A stretch of DNA of 26,744 bases from a virus. Numbering within the stretch: position 1 is the first letter of the stretch; each line of letters opens with the position of its first letter. Of this stretch, positions 16,899 to 26,623 are shown in pieces. The DNA lies in the IMG/VR virus record IMGVR_UViG_3300035218_000072, positions 1 through 26,744 of that record; one strand, 5' to 3'. The notes beneath the pieces were generated by a model. It was not told where the DNA came from and made no database searches. It saw nothing but the letters and a program-made list of their open reading frames with translations. The position numbers and the translations under genes are program-made.

Positions 16899-17750
16899 CT
16901 AGAGGTTCAGAATCGGTTCGCTGATGCGACCGGTGTCCGGGTTCCAGACGTGGCGGACCCCGTCAGGGTGGATGCCGCCCCCGGTGCGGGTCTTGAGGAA
17001 CTGGAACCGGATGTCCTTCTCCATCCGTTCCCGGATGTCCTGGGTCACGTTCGGGCTGAGGGACGGCTTGTACATTCCGAGGACGTAGTCGGCGGATTCC
17101 TCGCCACCGAACTTGCCGTCGGTCAGGTCTAGTTGTTTATGGCCGGCGTTGGCTTCGCCCCTCTTGACCTGGTGGAGGACAACTAGGGCTACGTCGTGTT
17201 CCCGGGCGAAGTTCTTCAATGCTCTCGCCATCGACTGGACCGAATCCATTTGGTTCTCTCCCCAGGTGCTGATGAGTTCAAGGTAGTCGATGAGGACAAG
17301 CCGTGGGCGTTGCCCGACCCGGGTCTCGTAGTCGTCAAGAACCTTCGTCATGTCACCCAGGCCGAGGTCGGGTTCATCCTCGATATGCAGCAGGGGCAGC
17401 CCGCTGGCTGCGGCCTCGACCGCTGACGACGCACCGTGTGTACGCATGCCTGTCTCGATGACCGTGGTGGCTGTGTCGGAGTAGACCGAGGCCAGACGCT
17501 CCAGAATGTACCGGCCATGCATCTCCAAGGAAAAGAACACGGTCGGTATCTGGGGCTGGTTGACGGCCACGTTGACGAGGAACCAGGTCTTACCTACCCC
17601 TGTCCGGGCAAGCATGATCATCACCTGGCCGGGGGCCATTCCACCTTGGGTCCGGTCATCGAAGAAGCTGTAGCCGATGGGCACCCGGACGATGTCCGAG
17701 GACGCCCACCGGTACAGCTCCGCCTTGACCTCTGGGAGGTCTCGAAGCAC
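16899..17750 (-). CDS. DnaB-like replicative helicase (RecA core only)
   Basis: A protein of 283 residues with a GTG start 6 nt after the preceding stop. The RecA-like ATPase core is complete: Walker A ARTGVGKT (residues 48-55), FFSLEM at 72-77, Walker B LVLIDYLEL with D155, and LVVLHQVKRGE as the next conserved strand, followed by DGKFGGEESADYVLGMYK. Full-length DnaB proteins are about 450 residues; the N-terminal primase-binding domain is missing here, as in several phage helicases. With the primase it would form the replication fork machinery. Confidence 0.8.
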   Translation of the reverse strand: MLRDLPEVKAELYRWASSDIVRVPIGYSFFDDRTQGGMAPGQVMIMLARTGVGKTWFLVNVAVNQPQIPTVFFSLEMHGRYILERLASVYSDTATTVIETGMRTHGASSAVEAAASGLPLLHIEDEPDLGLGDMTKVLDDYETRVGQRPRLVLIDYLELISTWGENQMDSVQSMARALKNFAREHDVALVVLHQVKRGEANAGHKQLDLTDGKFGGEESADYVLGMYKPSLSPNVTQDIRERMEKDIRFQFLKTRTGGGIHPDGVRHVWNPDTGRISEPILNL

Positions 17751-21376: not shown

Positions 21377-21394
21377 TTGACACGGTTGTGTCAA
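21377..21394 (-). other. Leader hairpin of the 45-residue gene
   Basis: TTGACAC (21377-21383) and GTGTCAA (21388-21394) form a perfect 7 bp stem with a 4 nt loop, between element X1 and the ribosome-binding site. Its position equals that of the CCCACC hairpins in the two neighbouring leaders, although the sequence is different. Confidence 0.6.
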
Positions 21395-21441
21395 TCGTCC
21401 CAGCCCGTGGCTCGCACACGGGTGCCTGCTGGTCTGGGGTG
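21393..21441 (-). ncRNA. tRNA-like minihelix element X1
   Basis: A 49-nt element identical to the one at 22264-22312. In the RNA, CCCAG (21434-21438) pairs with CUGGG (21399-21403) and CCCGUG (21417-21422) with CACGGG (21404-21409) around the 7-nt loop UGCGAGC. Both stems stack into an 11 bp helix like the acceptor plus T-arm of a tRNA. The loop resembles a T-loop (UUCRANN), with one change at position 55. An A and CGAU follow the acceptor strand, exactly as in the nearby tRNA-like RNA. D and anticodon arms are replaced by 11 nt. It could be cut by RNase P. Confidence 0.6.
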
Positions 21442-21683: not shown

Positions 21684-21687
21684 ATCG

Positions 21688-21766
21688 TGGAGCAGCCGGG
21701 AATCGAACCCGGGTCCCAGAGCGTCCGCATGCGGCGATAACTCTGGTCGATACCATTTCCTGCCCC
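21688..21766 (-). ncRNA. tRNA-like RNA in an intergenic leader
   Basis: A 79-nt RNA with a canonical upper half: acceptor strands GGGGCAG (21760-21766) and CUGCUCC (21689-21695) pair over 7 bp (one G-U) and end in a single A at 21688, followed by CGAU; the T-arm is a 5 bp stem with loop UUCGAUU (21696-21712). The lower half is unusual. There is no standard 5+7+5 anticodon arm; instead CCAGAG/CUCUGG (21741-21746 with 21716-21721) encloses a second hairpin, CCGCAUGCGG (21725-21734), and the D-arm is poor. No CCA is encoded. It may be a degenerate tRNA, an RNase P/tRNase processing signal, or an attachment-site remnant. Confidence 0.6.
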
Positions 21767-22221: not shown

Positions 22222-22247
22222 GTTGCTCTCCTCGTTGTATTGCTGTC

Positions 22248-22263
22248 CCCACCTGATGGTGGG
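22248..22263 (-). other. Leader hairpin of the 135-residue gene
   Basis: CCCACC (22248-22253) and GGTGGG (22258-22263) form a 6 bp stem with a 4-nt loop between element X2 and the ribosome-binding site. It is the near-identical counterpart of the hairpin at 21666-21683. Confidence 0.65.
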
Positions 22264-22312
22264 AATCGTCCCAGCCCGTGGCTCGCACACGGGTGCCTGC
22301 TGGTCTGGGGTG
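22264..22312 (-). ncRNA. tRNA-like minihelix element X2
   Basis: Exact 49-nt copy of element X1, 871 bp away, in the same place relative to the genes: just after a stop codon and before a hairpin and the shared ribosome-binding site. Acceptor-like CCCAG/CUGGG pairs lie at 22305-22309 and 22270-22274; the T-arm-like stem is at 22288-22293 with 22275-22280 around the loop at 22281-22287. Confidence 0.6.
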
Positions 22313-22835: not shown

Positions 22836-22858
22836 TGTTCTCTCCTCGTTGTTGGTTG

Positions 22859-22918
22859 TGCCCAGTCTCATCAGGACGGGTAGGGCAGTTCCCGTCGACC
22901 CCCGGAGGGGGTTTCGAC
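22859..22918 (-). ncRNA. Hammerhead ribozyme J (type II)
   Basis: In the RNA: stem II GUC/GAC (22916-22918 with 22865-22867), GAA (22913-22915), stem III A-CCCCC/GGGGG-U with a 3-nt loop (22898-22912), C17 at 22897, stem I GACGGG/CCCGUC type (22875-22880 with 22891-22896), CUGAUGA (22868-22874). Pseudoknot UGCCC in loop I (22883-22887) with GGGCA (22859-22863). The UGA stop of the upstream gene directly abuts stem II. Confidence 0.92.
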
Positions 22919-23305
22919 TCATCGCAGGAAGGCAGGCACCTCATCGGGTGCCAGACCTTCGGGGAAGTCGGCAGTGGTGATCCCCATCAGCCGATCGGTA
23001 ACTTCTTCGGCAACGTGCTCCCGGTGGATCCTCGGGCTCTTGTAGTGGATGCCCGCATGACGGGCAAACACGTCCTGCACCGTGAACAGGAGTGCAAACC
23101 GGGTCCCGTGGTTCGGGAGCCCGATCAACTCCAAGGCGTAGGTGTAGGCGGTCAGAGCCGAGGCGAATGACGCCTTGGCCTTGCCGGCTACCAGCCGCTG
23201 GGCCACTTCGGTCCCCTCGTAGAAGGAGATCAGGTTGAGGGCCAGCCGGTACACGACCTCACGGTCGAGCACCAGTTCGGTGATGGGTTCTGGGATTACT
23301 GACAT
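22919..23305 (-). CDS. Hypothetical helical protein
   Basis: A protein of 128 residues from the ATG at 23305, after GAGGAGAGAC. Mostly helical (EVVYRLALNLISFYEGTEVA, KASFASALTAYTYALELIG, FALLFTVQDVFARHAG) with a short acidic tail. No family recognised. Flanked by ribozymes I (leader) and J (directly after the stop). Confidence 0.6.
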   Translation of the reverse strand: MSVIPEPITELVLDREVVYRLALNLISFYEGTEVAQRLVAGKAKASFASALTAYTYALELIGLPNHGTRFALLFTVQDVFARHAGIHYKSPRIHREHVAEEVTDRLMGITTADFPEGLAPDEVPAFLR

Positions 23306-23326
23306 GTGTCTCTCCTCGTTGGTTGT

Positions 23327-23389
23327 TGACCTGTCTCATCAGGACGGGGTGGTCAGATCCCGTCGACACCCCCGGAGGGGTGTTTCGAC
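23327..23389 (-). ncRNA. Hammerhead ribozyme I (type II)
   Basis: Stem II GUC/GAC (23387-23389 with 23333-23335); GAA at 23384-23386; stem III of 7 bp, ACACCCC/GGGGUGU, with a UCCG tetraloop (23366-23383); C17 at 23365; stem I of 6 bp (23343-23348 with 23359-23364); CUGAUGA 23336-23342. Pseudoknot UGACC (23351-23355) with GGUCA (23327-23331). The upstream stop UAG shares its G with stem II. Confidence 0.93.
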
Positions 23390-23805
23390 TAGCCGTAGAT
23401 GGCCTCGCCGAGGACGCCTGCCTGCACGATGATGTCGGCAGTACTGGCGTCCAGCATGTCCTCGAAGTCACCGAACATGGTGAACCCGGAGGCCACCACA
23501 GTTGCCAGTGCGAAGGAAAGCTTCGCATGCTCTGACCGGGGGTGAATCCGGTGCTCTTCCCGGTACAGGTCTGTCTCGCCGGCGAGCACTTTCATGCCCT
23601 CCGTGATCACGTCACGGTCGACCCGGTGCCAGTCGTTCTCGGCCAGAGCGACCTCCTGGTCGTTGGCGTCGAGGCTGCCCAAGTCGATGACGTTGGCGTA
23701 CCAGTCCTCGATGGAATGCTTGTACTCGACGACCTGCGCCCAGTACTGGATCCCACCTTCGATGGCGGTCACGAACACGTCGTGTCGAATATCTGTCTCG
23801 CTCAT
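23389..23805 (-). CDS. Hypothetical phage protein
   Basis: A protein of 138 residues from the ATG at 23805 after GAGGAGAGAACA. The section AIEGGIQYWAQVVEYKHS followed by DWYANVIDL and a helical C-terminus resembles a small protein type that I associate with actinobacterial phages, function unknown. The C-terminal 50 residues alternate Ala/Val/Gly and acidic residues. Flanked by ribozymes H and I. Confidence 0.6.
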   Translation of the reverse strand: MSETDIRHDVFVTAIEGGIQYWAQVVEYKHSIEDWYANVIDLGSLDANDQEVALAENDWHRVDRDVITEGMKVLAGETDLYREEHRIHPRSEHAKLSFALATVVASGFTMFGDFEDMLDASTADIIVQAGVLGEAIYG

Positions 23806-23827
23806 TGTTCTCTCCTCGTTGGTTGGT

Positions 23828-23890
23828 TGGCTTGTCTCATCAGTGGGTGGGTAGCCATCCCATCCCAGACCCCCCGAAGGGGGTTTCGAC
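23828..23890 (-). ncRNA. Hammerhead ribozyme H (type II)
   Basis: Stem II GUC/GAC (23888-23890 with 23834-23836); GAA 23885-23887; stem III ACCCCC/GGGGGU with a UUCG loop (23869-23884); C17 at 23868; stem I of 8 bp with one bulged base (23844-23851 with 23859-23867); CUGAUGA 23837-23843. Pseudoknot UGGCU (23853-23857) with AGCCA (23828-23832). The upstream UGA stop is 6 nt before stem II. Confidence 0.93.
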
Positions 23891-23896
23891 TAGCGG

Positions 23897-24382
23897 TCAG
23901 AAACGCTCGTCAGGGTCACAACGCTCGACCCTGACCAACTCGTCAATGGCAGCCCGGACCGTGTCCTCGTGGATCGTCCGGCAGCCCATAACCGGGCTGT
24001 AGAACGACGGCACTAGGTAGACCCAGTAGCCCTCGTCGCCACCGGCCGGGTCGCTGGTCGAACCGACCCGAGGGTCGGCCTGAACCTGCGCCCACGTCCG
24101 GGGCTTCTTGGTCGGCACCTGAATGGTGGCGCAGCCTTCGCAGACTCGCCACTCAACCTGATAGCCGAGGTGGTCGAGGGTGACCTCGACGATGTCCTCG
24201 TCGAACGGGATCGGCTCGTCGCACCGGTCACAGTCGAAGACTGAACCGAGGCACTCGATGCACTGGTACCCGATGTGCTCACCGTCACCGTCGACCCACA
24301 GCCGATTGACGAACCGGCCGAAACCGAACGCCGTCGACTGGCCGCACTCGACGCACGGATCCATAACTGTTGTCTCGTTCAT
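23897..24382 (-). CDS. Four-CxxC zinc-ribbon protein
   Basis: A protein of 161 residues from the ATG at 24382 after GAGGAGAGCAA. Four CxxC pairs at residues 10/13, 41/44, 51/54 and 81/84 (CVEC, CIEC, CDRC, CEGC) would form two zinc ribbons. The C-terminal half (TWAQVQADPRVG, YWVYLVPSFYSPVMG, IHEDTVRAAIDELVR) has no known domain. Possibly a nucleic-acid- or protein-binding early factor. Flanked by ribozymes G and H. Confidence 0.65.
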   Translation of the reverse strand: MNETTVMDPCVECGQSTAFGFGRFVNRLWVDGDGEHIGYQCIECLGSVFDCDRCDEPIPFDEDIVEVTLDHLGYQVEWRVCEGCATIQVPTKKPRTWAQVQADPRVGSTSDPAGGDEGYWVYLVPSFYSPVMGCRTIHEDTVRAAIDELVRVERCDPDERF

Positions 24383-24399
24383 ATTGCTCTCCTCGTTTG

Positions 24400-24462
24400 G
24401 ACCTGCCTCATCAGGTCCCGGACGGTCAGTCCCGGGACGACCCCCCGGAGGGGGTTTCGGCA
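24400..24462 (-). ncRNA. Hammerhead ribozyme G (type II)
   Basis: Stem II UGCC/GGCA (24459-24462 with 24404-24407), different from but compensating for the GUC/GAC of other copies; GAA 24456-24458; stem III ACCCCC/GGGGGU with a UCCG loop (24440-24455); C17 at 24439; stem I of 9 bp with one bulge (24415-24423 with 24429-24438); CUGAUGA 24408-24414. Pseudoknot GACC (24424-24427) with GGUC (24400-24403). Confidence 0.93.
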
Positions 24463-24463
24463 T

Positions 24464-24760
24464 TCAGAATCCAAACTCCTGCTTGGCCTGAGCCATCAGT
24501 GCTGCGGCCTCCAACTCGGCCTCGTCGACAGCGGTCAGGATGTTGTCTGCATCCCACACTTCGCCGACCTGACAGCCGTCAAAGTCTCCGACCTTCGCAC
24601 CTTCGGCGTTGCCGTCGAAGTCGACTAGGAAGTCGACCCACGACTGGGTGACGTAAGCCACCAGCCAGAGCGTGTTGTTCTCGTCCAGCCCGTAGGTGTT
24701 GCCACCGGCGAAGGAGTCGTAATGCTTCGGCTTGATCTTCCAGTTCGGTTCGGTCTTCAT
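24464..24760 (-). CDS. Hypothetical small protein
   Basis: A protein of 98 residues from the ATG at 24760 after GAGGAGAGAACG. The N-terminal half is beta-rich (GLDENNTLWLVAYVTQSWVD), then a Gly/Asp section, then an acidic Ala-rich helix (TAVDEAELEAAALMAQAKQEF). No family recognised. Flanked by ribozymes F and G; the stop lies 1 nt from stem II of G. Confidence 0.6.
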   Translation of the reverse strand: MKTEPNWKIKPKHYDSFAGGNTYGLDENNTLWLVAYVTQSWVDFLVDFDGNAEGAKVGDFDGCQVGEVWDADNILTAVDEAELEAAALMAQAKQEFGF

Positions 24761-24777
24761 CGTTCTCTCCTCGTTAG

Positions 24778-24840
24778 GGCCTGCCTCATCAGGGCGGGGA
24801 CGGCCAGTCCCCCACCGACCCCCCGGAGGGGGTTTCGGCA
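24778..24840 (-). ncRNA. Hammerhead ribozyme F (type II)
   Basis: Stem II UGCC/GGCA (24837-24840 with 24782-24785); GAA 24834-24836; stem III ACCCCC/GGGGGU with a UCCG loop (24818-24833); C17 at 24817; stem I of 9 bp with one bulge (24793-24801 with 24807-24816); CUGAUGA 24786-24792. Pseudoknot GGCC (24802-24805) with GGCC (24778-24781). Confidence 0.92.
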
Positions 24841-24841
24841 T

Positions 24842-25054
24842 TCAGTCCAAGCCATTCAGGCTCGAGTGCCAGTAGTCGCCGGGGAGGCGCTTCAGCCACA
24901 CGGCCAACTGCGCCAAGGCGGCGTCGTAATCGAGATCGCCTAACCAGTCCTCGTGGTGGGCCCCTTGCATGTCGAAGGGCAGCATCTCGGCGGCCTTGTA
25001 GATCAACCATGCGGCGAGGTTCGCTTTCTGGTCGGACGTCAATGTCTTGTTCAT
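24842..25054 (-). CDS. Hypothetical small helical protein
   Basis: A protein of 70 residues from the ATG at 25054 after GAGGAGAGAACG. Helical, rich in Leu, Ala and Trp (NLAAWLIYKAAEMLPFD, DAALAQLAVWLKRLPGDYW). No known family. Flanked by ribozymes E and F. Confidence 0.6.
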   Translation of the reverse strand: MNKTLTSDQKANLAAWLIYKAAEMLPFDMQGAHHEDWLGDLDYDAALAQLAVWLKRLPGDYWHSSLNGLD

Positions 25055-25074
25055 CGTTCTCTCCTCGTGGTTTG

Positions 25075-25135
25075 TGGCTTGTCTCATCAGCGGGGTAGGA
25101 GCCACCTACACCCGGACCCCCGAAGGGGTTTCGAC
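25075..25135 (-). ncRNA. Hammerhead ribozyme E (type II)
   Basis: Stem II GUC/GAC (25133-25135 with 25081-25083), which could extend through GGC/GCC with two bulged A; GAA 25130-25132; stem III ACCCC/GGGGU with a UUCG loop (25116-25129); C17 at 25115; stem I of 9 bp with one bulge (25091-25099 with 25105-25114); CUGAUGA 25084-25090. Pseudoknot UGGCU (25100-25104) with AGCCA (25075-25079). Confidence 0.93.
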
Positions 25136-25138
25136 GCC

Positions 25139-25414
25139 TCAGGACTGCACCTGGACCCTCGCCGCACGCCGCAGAACGACGGGCAACAGGACCAGCACAG
25201 CCAGACATCCAGCAGCCACCTCGACGGCCGGCCCGACCCCTTGCGAGAGGCCAGCCAGACCATCCGAAATGGCGTTCCCGACCAGTGCCCCAATCGCTGC
25301 GCCGGCCGCCTTCGAGCGGTACCGGCGAGGGATCGGGATGTACTGATCGAAGTCCAACCCCGCCAGCAGGCAGAGCAGGAGCACACCGTTGTCGATGATT
25401 CCGAACATGAACAT
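25139..25414 (-). CDS. Small multi-span membrane protein
   Basis: A protein of 91 residues from the ATG at 25414 after GAGGAGAGAC; a second ATG two codons later (25408) would give wider spacing. Three hydrophobic stretches: residues 4-20 (FGIIDNGVLLLCLLAG), 36-52 (AAGAAIGALVGNAISDG) and 60-80 (GPAVEVAAGCLAVLVLLPVV), ending in a basic tail. A glycine-zipper-like middle span (GxxxG) is visible. Role unknown; membrane association early in infection is a reasonable inference. Confidence 0.6.
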   Translation of the reverse strand: MFMFGIIDNGVLLLCLLAGLDFDQYIPIPRRYRSKAAGAAIGALVGNAISDGLAGLSQGVGPAVEVAAGCLAVLVLLPVVLRRAARVQVQS

Positions 25415-25425
25415 GTCTCTCCTCG

Positions 25426-25487
25426 TGGGTTGTCTCATCAGTGCCCGGGAACCCATCCCGGACAGACCCCCGTCAGGGGGTTTCGAC
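25426..25487 (-). ncRNA. Hammerhead ribozyme D (type II)
   Basis: Stem II GUC/GAC (25485-25487 with 25432-25434); GAA 25482-25484; stem III ACCCCC/GGGGGU with a UGAC loop (25466-25481); C17 at 25465; stem I of 9 bp (25442-25450 with 25456-25464); CUGAUGA 25435-25441. Pseudoknot UGGGU (25451-25455) with ACCCA (25426-25430), which directly abuts the CGAGGAG of the ribosome-binding site. The UAG stop shares its G with stem II. Confidence 0.93.
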
Positions 25488-25882
25488 TAGCCGAACGTGC
25501 CGGCCTCGTGGCGCTCTTGAGCCCACTCGGCGAACTCTTCGACCTGCTGGTTGGGCGACCCGTACTCCCAGTGGGAATGGCCGTTCTCACACGACCAGCC
25601 CTTGGACCCGTTCTCAGCCACCGTGTAGGTGACCTTCGCCCCACAGTCGACCTCCGTGTAGAGGTCCCCCGGGGAGTCCGGGTAGCCGCCCATCCACTCG
25701 CCAGTCTCAGGGTCGTACATCGCCGGGTCGGACACGTCACCGAAGTCGGTGGGCGCCAGAACCAGCCATGTGCAGCCCTCGTCTTTGGCGGCGGCGGCAG
25801 CGTCTGCTGCCATCTCTGCTTCGACCTCCAGCCGGTGCTGCTTGCAGCACAACGGCCAGCGGTCAATGTCGCAGTTGCTCAT
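25487..25882 (-). CDS. Hypothetical Cys-rich protein
   Basis: A protein of 131 residues from the ATG at 25882 after GAGGAGAGAAC. The N-terminus carries a Cys/His set (CDIDRWPLCCKQH), followed by an Ala-rich helix (EAEMAADAAAAAKDEG), a beta section (TWLVLAPTDFGDVS) and a C-terminal part with further Cys and His (GWSCENGHSHWEYG). Possibly metal-binding; no family recognised. Flanked by ribozymes C and D. Confidence 0.6.
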   Translation of the reverse strand: MSNCDIDRWPLCCKQHRLEVEAEMAADAAAAAKDEGCTWLVLAPTDFGDVSDPAMYDPETGEWMGGYPDSPGDLYTEVDCGAKVTYTVAENGSKGWSCENGHSHWEYGSPNQQVEEFAEWAQERHEAGTFG

Positions 25883-25900
25883 GGTTCTCTCCTCGTTGGT

Positions 25901-25959
25901 TGGACTGTCTCATCAGGCCCGGGAGTCCATTCCCGGACGACCCCCGAAGGGGTTTCGAC
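25901..25959 (-). ncRNA. Hammerhead ribozyme C (type II)
   Basis: Stem II GUC/GAC (25957-25959 with 25907-25909); GAA 25954-25956; stem III ACCCC/GGGGU with a UUCG loop (25940-25953); C17 at 25939; stem I of 8 bp (25917-25924 with 25931-25938); CUGAUGA 25910-25916. Pseudoknot UGGAC (25925-25929) with GUCCA (25901-25905). The UGA stop of the upstream gene directly abuts stem II. Confidence 0.94.
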
Positions 25960-26187
25960 TCAGGCCGCTTGCACGGCGCCCTCTTGGGCAGCACCCGTCG
26001 AATCGACGATGCAATCGACCGCACCGAAGTAGCCCTTGACGTCCTCAGTGATCGCCGCCTTCCACGACTGGCCGAACTCCGGGATGATCCCGTAGACCTT
26101 CGACCACAACTCGACGTCGACCTCGACCGTGAAGGCCGGGATCCTGACCTTGATGGTCGGACCGGTTGGCTTGAAGTACTCGCTCAT
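25960..26187 (-). CDS. Hypothetical small protein
   Basis: A protein of 75 residues from the ATG at 26187 after GAGGAGAGCAAC. Beta-rich N-terminus (TIKVRIPAFTVEVDVELWS), then helical with an Ala-rich end. No known family. Ribozyme B lies in its leader and ribozyme C begins at its stop codon. Confidence 0.6.
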   Translation of the reverse strand: MSEYFKPTGPTIKVRIPAFTVEVDVELWSKVYGIIPEFGQSWKAAITEDVKGYFGAVDCIVDSTGAAQEGAVQAA

Positions 26188-26206
26188 GTTGCTCTCCTCG
26201 TTGGTT

Positions 26207-26270
26207 TGAGATGTCTCATCAGGCCGTGGGCTCTCACCCCACAGCGACACCCCCGAAGGGGTGTTTCGAC
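26207..26270 (-). ncRNA. Hammerhead ribozyme B (type II)
   Basis: Stem II GUC/GAC (26268-26270 with 26213-26215); GAA 26265-26267; stem III of 7 bp, ACACCCC/GGGGUGU, with a UUCG loop (26247-26264); C17 at 26246; stem I of 8 bp (26223-26230 with 26238-26245); CUGAUGA 26216-26222. Pseudoknot UGAGA (26232-26236) with UCUCA (26207-26211). The UAG stop of the upstream gene shares its G with stem II. Confidence 0.94.
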
Positions 26271-26557
26271 TAGCGGCTGGAAGCGACCCACCGCTGGGCT
26301 GCTTCGTCACGTTCCCGCTCGTACCGCTCGTTGTTGACGGCCTCGACCTTGCACTCCTTGAGGGTGCGCTCGTACTCGCCACCCGGCGTGTACTGGTCAC
26401 CATCAGCAGTGTCGATCTGCCACGCCCAGTAGAAGTTCTGCCCGTAGAACCAGTTGGATCCGGGGAAGTACTTGCTGACCGTGAGCACGGTGCCGTTCTC
26501 GAGAGTGGCCGTGTACTGGCTCCACTGGTCGGTCTTCGTCCATGTGATCTCGTTCAT
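26270..26557 (-). CDS. Hypothetical small protein
   Basis: A protein of 95 residues from the ATG at 26557 after GAGGAG and a 6-nt spacer. Aromatic-rich middle (WSQYTATLENG, YFPGSNWFYGQNFYWAWQID), then a charged C-terminal helix with many Glu and Arg. No family recognised. It is the first complete gene of the ribozyme-separated run within the window, and its ribosome-binding site is part of the type III ribozyme A. Confidence 0.6.
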   Translation of the reverse strand: MNEITWTKTDQWSQYTATLENGTVLTVSKYFPGSNWFYGQNFYWAWQIDTADGDQYTPGGEYERTLKECKVEAVNNERYERERDEAAQRWVASSR

Positions 26558-26563
26558 GTTGCT

Positions 26564-26623
26564 CTCCTCGTTTCGACCTTGACTGAGGTCTCATCAGGGC
26601 CGCTACCAGCGACCGACGAGGAG
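26564..26623 (-). ncRNA. Hammerhead ribozyme A (type III, overlaps ribosome-binding site)
   Basis: Here stem III is open-ended and stems I and II are closed. CUCCUCGU (26616-26623) pairs over 8 bp with ACGAGGAG (26564-26571); C17 is at 26615; stem I GGUCGCU/AGCGGCC with a 3-nt loop (26598-26614); CUGAUGA 26591-26597; stem II GACC/GGUC with an 8-nt loop (26575-26590); GAA 26572-26574. The 3' strand of stem III contains GAGGAG, the ribosome-binding site of the gene that starts at 26557. Confidence 0.92.

Follow-up and report, generated by a model that had tools for sequence, protein, structure and literature searches.

What would a phage gain by placing a self-cleaving RNA ahead of each gene of an operon? 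The question is raised by the viral record IMGVR_UViG_3300035218_000072, a 26.7-kb metagenomic fragment that was analyzed over its whole length (26,744 nucleotides, nt; hereafter the window). Ten consecutive genes on its minus strand (g1 to g10), encoding 70-172 residues each and spanning positions 26557 to 22317, are each preceded by a GAGGAG Shine-Dalgarno sequence. Hammerhead ribozymes lie on the same, coding strand, one ahead of g1 and one in each gap between g1 and g10, nine of them of type II and one of type III. The best explanation, proposed in an earlier sequence-only reading of this DNA and retained here as probable, is that the hammerheads would split the operon transcript into single-gene mRNAs, each with a stem I hairpin at its 5' end and a stem III hairpin at its 3' end.

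A chance origin of the motifs was ruled out, since the window holds 15 CTGATGA sites where 3.25 are expected, 10 of them within the array, and the complete type II pattern was found nine times, always on the minus strand, and not once in 100 shuffles. The nine type II copies display the CUGANGA and GAAA core and three stems, of which stem II is open and the other two are closed, and their U-H cleavage site after stem III is UC in every case (9/9); copy 1 belongs to type III, since here stem III is the open one and the closed ones are stems I and II. In the direction of transcription, the type III leader (hammerhead 1, 26564-26623, C17 at 26615, 22.1 bits) is followed by g1 (26557-26270), hammerhead 2 (26205-26271, C17 at 26246, 44.6 bits), g2 (26187-25960), hammerhead 3 (25899-25960, C17 at 25939, 49.2 bits), g3 (25882-25487), hammerhead 4 (25424-25488, C17 at 25465, 50.8 bits), g4 (25414-25139), hammerhead 5 (25072-25136, C17 at 25115, 22.9 bits, with core, stems, and pseudoknot intact), g5 (25054-24842), hammerhead 6 (24775-24840, C17 at 24817, 41.9 bits), g6 (24760-24464), hammerhead 7 (24397-24462, C17 at 24439, 45.2 bits), g7 (24382-23897), hammerhead 8 (23826-23891, C17 at 23868, 33.2 bits), g8 (23805-23389), hammerhead 9 (23325-23390, C17 at 23365, 44.8 bits), g9 (23305-22919), hammerhead 10 (22850-22919, C17 at 22897, 28.4 bits), and g10 (22835-22317). 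Several hammerheads thus flank genes on the coding strand, as in the clusters already known. No Pfam match was obtained for the genes tested, and PHROGs matches led only to families of unknown function.

The ten sites and their types, all of them named in the sequence-only reading, were borne out by the motif counts, by Rfam, and by an independent stem-finding script, which recovered stems I, II, and III of all nine type II copies and reproduced all ten predicted C17 positions exactly. The same reading expected the Rfam models to match every site. This held for eight type II copies in the scan of the window with RF02276, six of them above the gathering score and two (hammerheads 8 and 10) below it, whereas hammerhead 5 and the type III copy (RF00008) were matched below gathering and in small-region scans only; these two rest on their core and stems, and the type III copy additionally on conservation in relatives. 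One hammerhead per intergenic space was correct for the ten spaces named, but the next three gaps downstream of the array contain tRNA-like elements in place of hammerheads.

In the copy cleaved at 25465, the G of the UAG stop codon opens stem II (GUC) and is followed by GAAA, the stem III hairpin CCCCCUGACGGGGGU, and C17, the cleavage point; then come the stem I hairpin UGUCCGGGAUGGGUUCCCGGGCA, CUGAUGA, GAC, AACCCA, CGAGGAG, and the start codon. The AACCCA tail is complementary to the stem I loop UGGGUU. Such a pseudoknot between loop I and the 3' tail is common in type II hammerheads, not universal. It was found, with covarying partners and at least four Watson-Crick pairs each, in 9/9 type II copies of the window, and the same pairing occurs in 21/21 type II copies of relatives, a set of 33 viral loci and one contig (L168) found by means of the DnaB-type helicase (16899-17750) and g6. 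None of 2000 partner shuffles paired as well in either set, counts that are not to be read as probabilities, the relatives being non-independent samples. In a related type II hammerhead the pseudoknot was required for rapid cleavage (Perreault et al. 2011, PMC3088659). Downstream, a Shine-Dalgarno sequence and a start codon were present within 68 nt in 139/147 type II copies of the window and other arrays. Judged from this layout, the predicted cleavage would give the upstream mRNA a 3'-terminal hairpin right after its stop codon and the following mRNA a 5'-terminal one. The hairpins could alternatively be mere terminators or generic mRNA stabilisers around an incidental hammerhead core, as stem III is a G+C-rich hairpin right behind the stop codon. 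We regard this as barely credible: no terminator-like site overlaps the array (one in the region vs. 3.2 in shuffles), and the complete core with compensated stems recurs in relatives. Intrinsic terminators were themselves rejected, with no terminator-like site at any hammerhead and no U-tracts.

The type III leader ahead of g1 differs in its arrangement. Its stem III is formed by CUCCUCGU/ACGAGGAG, the second strand being the Shine-Dalgarno sequence of g1. A type III leader of this build opens the array in 5/5 phages that reach the array start (the window, L135, L136, L142, and L168), and in the four relatives its stems I and II carry compensatory changes. Cistron separation needs no ribozyme before g1, a hint that what matters is the 5' end produced by processing or the freeing of the Shine-Dalgarno sequence. 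About 170 nt of upstream leader sequence are conserved in L135 and L136, and L135 has long open frames on the minus strand upstream, so the array probably begins at a divergent promoter region. The leader bears on a different reading, in which the hammerheads are translation switches, their folding and the pseudoknot beside the Shine-Dalgarno sequence being regulatory and cistron separation secondary. It draws on the Shine-Dalgarno sequence contained in the leader stem III and on the pseudoknot strand shortly upstream of this signal (a few nt away at 25465). However, the Shine-Dalgarno sequence is masked by the leader only and is free in the nine type II copies, and neither a ligand-binding domain nor an alternative conserved fold was seen. 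Regulation of this kind is compatible with processing and does not exclude it; as the primary role we consider it unlikely.

Hammerheads were retained in relatives despite altered stems. Type II copies numbered 4-7 each in L135/L138, L136, L142, L167, and L168, the last being a contig binned as Acidimicrobiaceae with a helicase 69% identical to that of the window; this contig, possibly misbinned, suggests Acidimicrobiia as possible hosts. An intact core was kept ahead of the orthologs of g3, g4, g6, g7, g8, g9, and g10, except where a hammerhead is swapped for a tRNA-like element. The sequence-only reading had named loss of the core at kept spacing in close relatives as an outcome that would speak against it; at the orthologous junctions inspected, where alone decayed copies are detectable because the motif finders demand intact cores, no decayed core at kept spacing was found, and each junction held either an intact core or a tRNA-like element. 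Gene order varies, with g4 before g3 in L136 and an extra gene-plus-hammerhead unit between g7 and g8 in L135. This indicated that, as judged by comparison of the loci, each gene and the ribozyme beside it act together as one cassette. Such mobility would also be expected if the repeats were recombination punctuation, kept so that similar sequences between genes allow cassette exchange, with cleavage unimportant: the breakpoints of the altered gene orders fall at hammerheads, the insertion in L135 is a whole gene-plus-hammerhead unit, and stem I variants are independent of the downstream gene. Homology alone needs no pairing, however, and stems and pseudoknots vary among copies yet remain paired; within any array every copy lies on the coding strand, and placement relative to the stop codon and the Shine-Dalgarno sequence is tight. 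Recombination as the sole reason for the repeats is thus quite improbable in our judgment.

The tRNA-like elements downstream of the array lead to a second kind of junction. Two are minihelices, each with a downstream hairpin: minihelix 1 (22309-22270; with its hairpin 22246-22309, minus strand) lies before the gene 22221-21814, and minihelix 2 (21438-21399; with its hairpin 21377-21438, minus strand) before a gene for 45 amino acids (21350-21213). In the AT-rich, marine-type relatives no hammerheads were found, and visual reading of the gaps brought out the minihelices; L151, L153, and L161 had no hammerhead of the kinds searched (the motif finder was run on all three, and an Rfam scan was made too), and many gaps of their corresponding operon are occupied by a minihelix. 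Its layout comprises a 5-bp acceptor, the linker AAUGGUU, a 6-bp T-stem, and the T-loop UUCGAUU, then ACGA, a hairpin (e.g., UUGACAC-AACC-GUGUCAA), and GAGGAGG. Searched on their coding strands, the window and relatives gave 38 hits with a finder for this layout (32 unique, since some loci overlap on the same contig), of which one, in L146, was visibly spurious; controls gave two hits on the opposite strands and one in shuffled sequence. In an alignment of 23 minihelices 98.4% of pair cells were paired (68% in shuffles), 10/11 pairs varied on both sides, and double-change cells numbered 71 vs. 17. Acceptor and T-stem thus covary around a T-loop, in a fold of which the window has two copies. 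T-loop and linker co-vary as well (UUC with GG, UGC with AG), as expected if the two form a tRNA elbow. An Rfam scan of the L151 operon gave no match at E ≤ 1. Shaped like tRNAs and lacking an encoded CCA, the minihelices are probably substrates of RNase Z and/or RNase P. A pattern search of IMG/VR as a whole, with a strict pattern, returned seven stretches only; in hammerhead-bearing IMG/VR stretches a single stray minihelix match was present among the matches listed, and hence there is no general co-occurrence.

Between the two window minihelices, before the gene 21640-21446, lies a domain of the transfer-messenger RNA (tmRNA) type (21685-21766, minus strand, 58 bits), also found in L136, L142, L164, and L165. 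It matches the tRNA-like domain of tmRNA (RF00023), including the T-loop, G3-U70, and the discriminator A. It is not a full tmRNA: 306 model positions including the tag-coding region are reduced to 13 nt, a short stem-loop stands in their place, and the element sits between two phage genes. It may mark a site of processing or lure away the partners of tmRNA as a decoy. Other structured stretches were observed in relatives. In L151 (2600-2790), two related ones (UCAGUUAAACGAGGGUGAA... and UCAGUUAAAUCGAGGGAUGAA...) without an Rfam match occupy a gap preceding a minihelix; in L139 (2990-3050) and L142 (2740-2800), the minihelix ahead of the 45-residue membrane gene is replaced by a long hairpin, rich in G+C and preceded by a GGGGGAAUGGGGG-like stretch, perhaps a further kind of junction; and L168 has, at 2740-2850, a T-arm with ACGA and a hairpin behind it, probably a tRNA-like domain of the same kind.

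Both kinds of device occur in the window, and they replace each other at orthologous junctions. Ahead of g10 or its ortholog, a hammerhead is present in L136, L168, and the window, and a tRNA-like fold with an added D-arm (fold z-score -5.0) in L135, L138, and L139, which share close sequence there; a hammerhead-core tag at this junction of the latter three proved false, CTGAGGA belonging to the end of the upstream gene and the gap to the tRNA-like fold. Conversely, a minihelix precedes the gene 22221-21814 in the window and its orthologs in L135, L136, and L139, and a hammerhead precedes the ortholog in L142. That devices of unrelated chemistry stand at one and the same orthologous junction points to selection on an outcome common to both, the separation of cistrons by a cut with a hairpin on either side, and the swaps, as far as sequence can tell, support this outcome over end chemistry or recombination alone. 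End chemistry would be central if the released cistrons were circularised, their 5'-OH and 2',3'-cyclic phosphate ends being joined by RtcB or by reverse cleavage. Two flanking hammerheads yield exactly such ends by established chemistry, and circular RNA elements elsewhere use them; nevertheless, spliced or circular products were sought and none was found by Perreault et al. (PMC3088659), and tRNA-like elements at the same junctions, if cut by RNase Z or P, would yield different ends. Circular mRNAs therefore appear very improbable.

Cutting into linear, hairpin-ended mRNAs has a counterpart in mitochondria, where structured RNAs (tRNAs) lie between genes and their processing frees single mRNAs. 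The phages would differ in using ribozymes and minihelices of acceptor and T-arm instead of full tRNAs, the cutting of the minihelices being putative. With confidence evenly divided, we propose that two unrelated, interchangeable RNA devices, hammerheads and minihelices cut by host tRNA-processing enzymes, serve as punctuation through which almost all accessory genes obtain independent mRNAs with hairpin ends. This would be a viral counterpart of the tRNA punctuation of mitochondria, with a fold for this role that lies outside all Rfam families.

Intergenic DNA of the window matched Streptomyces phages of the Arquatrovirinae, whose accessory operons also carry type II hammerheads in their gaps, 8-13 per phage overall (8-12 RF02276 copies per genome in six phages, and 13 by motif in Paedore). 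In Paedore, Omar, and Salutena, 29/35 gaps of at least 60 nt contained a hammerhead, in contrast with 0/44 shorter gaps. These arrays are apparently unannotated, as the features listed in the phage records make no mention of hammerheads. They differ from the window array in their weaker loop-tail pairing and in showing neither a Shine-Dalgarno-masking type III leader nor minihelices in the stretches examined. A strict pattern occurred in at least 120 stretches of IMG/VR, and in 17 of the 120 matches listed a looser structure finder detected at least three hammerheads, always on a single strand within a stretch. Three other IMG/VR contigs (L032, L048, and L078) carry pairs of type I hammerheads and one type III, likewise near genes.

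The sequence-only reading knew of no described operon with a hammerhead of its own between each gene and the next. This was not borne out, given the arrays of 8-13 in public Streptomyces phages and the type II hammerheads, pseudoknots, and clusters flanking single genes or short gene blocks described in prophages by Perreault et al. 2011 (PMC3088659), who already proposed processing to short or single-gene mRNAs; tandem prophage hammerheads self-cleaved in vitro, and a triple arrangement cleaved in E. coli. A 2017 review restated the phage association and called the role open (PMC6155905). The window ribozymes therefore belong to a known family, and the processing idea is not new; core, type II order, the pseudoknot of loop I and 3' tail, and gene-flanking position are shared with the prophage hammerheads (RF02276). 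They differ from the prophage clusters in their uninterrupted run of ten, one before every array gene, in the type III leader over the first Shine-Dalgarno sequence, and in the exchange with tRNA-like elements, three features without precedent in the open-access literature searched. The same literature, with subscription journals outside the search, held nothing relevant on hammerhead arrays of Streptomyces phages or on tRNA-like punctuation in phages. What is new is the scale of the array, the masking leader, the Arquatrovirinae arrays, and the hammerhead/minihelix swaps; the loop I pseudoknot, the overlap of leader and Shine-Dalgarno sequence, and the tRNA-like elements are additions to the sequence-only reading.

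From motif, position, covariation, conservation, and swaps we infer cleavage in the cell, enzymes acting on the minihelices, and a benefit to the phage. Each hammerhead would cut itself after C17 during transcription, and each cistron would be freed as its own mRNA, starting with a 5'-OH and the stem I hairpin and ending, a few nt past the stop codon, with the GAAA-stem III hairpin and a 2',3'-cyclic phosphate. The type III leader would act likewise for g1 and may also unmask the Shine-Dalgarno sequence otherwise paired in stem III. In the downstream operon and in related phages, minihelix and hairpin would play an equal role, with RNase Z and/or RNase P of the host as the probable cutting enzymes. 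Either way the product would be a short mRNA with a closing hairpin at each end. Several observations weigh against this mechanism: copies 1 and 5 fall far under the Rfam cut-off and copies 8 and 10 somewhat under it, the loop-tail pairing signal is weak in Streptomyces phages, and pseudoknot-free folding often misses stem II and gives copy 10 an alternative fold. Besides, the stop codon adjoins stem II, and a terminating ribosome could hinder folding.

The role of hammerheads in phages has been open since their discovery there. The full array, the leader masking a Shine-Dalgarno sequence, and the swap junctions point to one function, the cutting of a polycistronic RNA into hairpin-capped single-gene messages, and the similar arrays of cultured, sequenced Streptomyces phages make this idea testable. 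The minihelix would add a new class to the structured RNAs of phages and would at the same time be a compact signal for processing. Short mRNAs closed by hairpins would turn each accessory gene into a self-contained unit whose stability and translation are its own.

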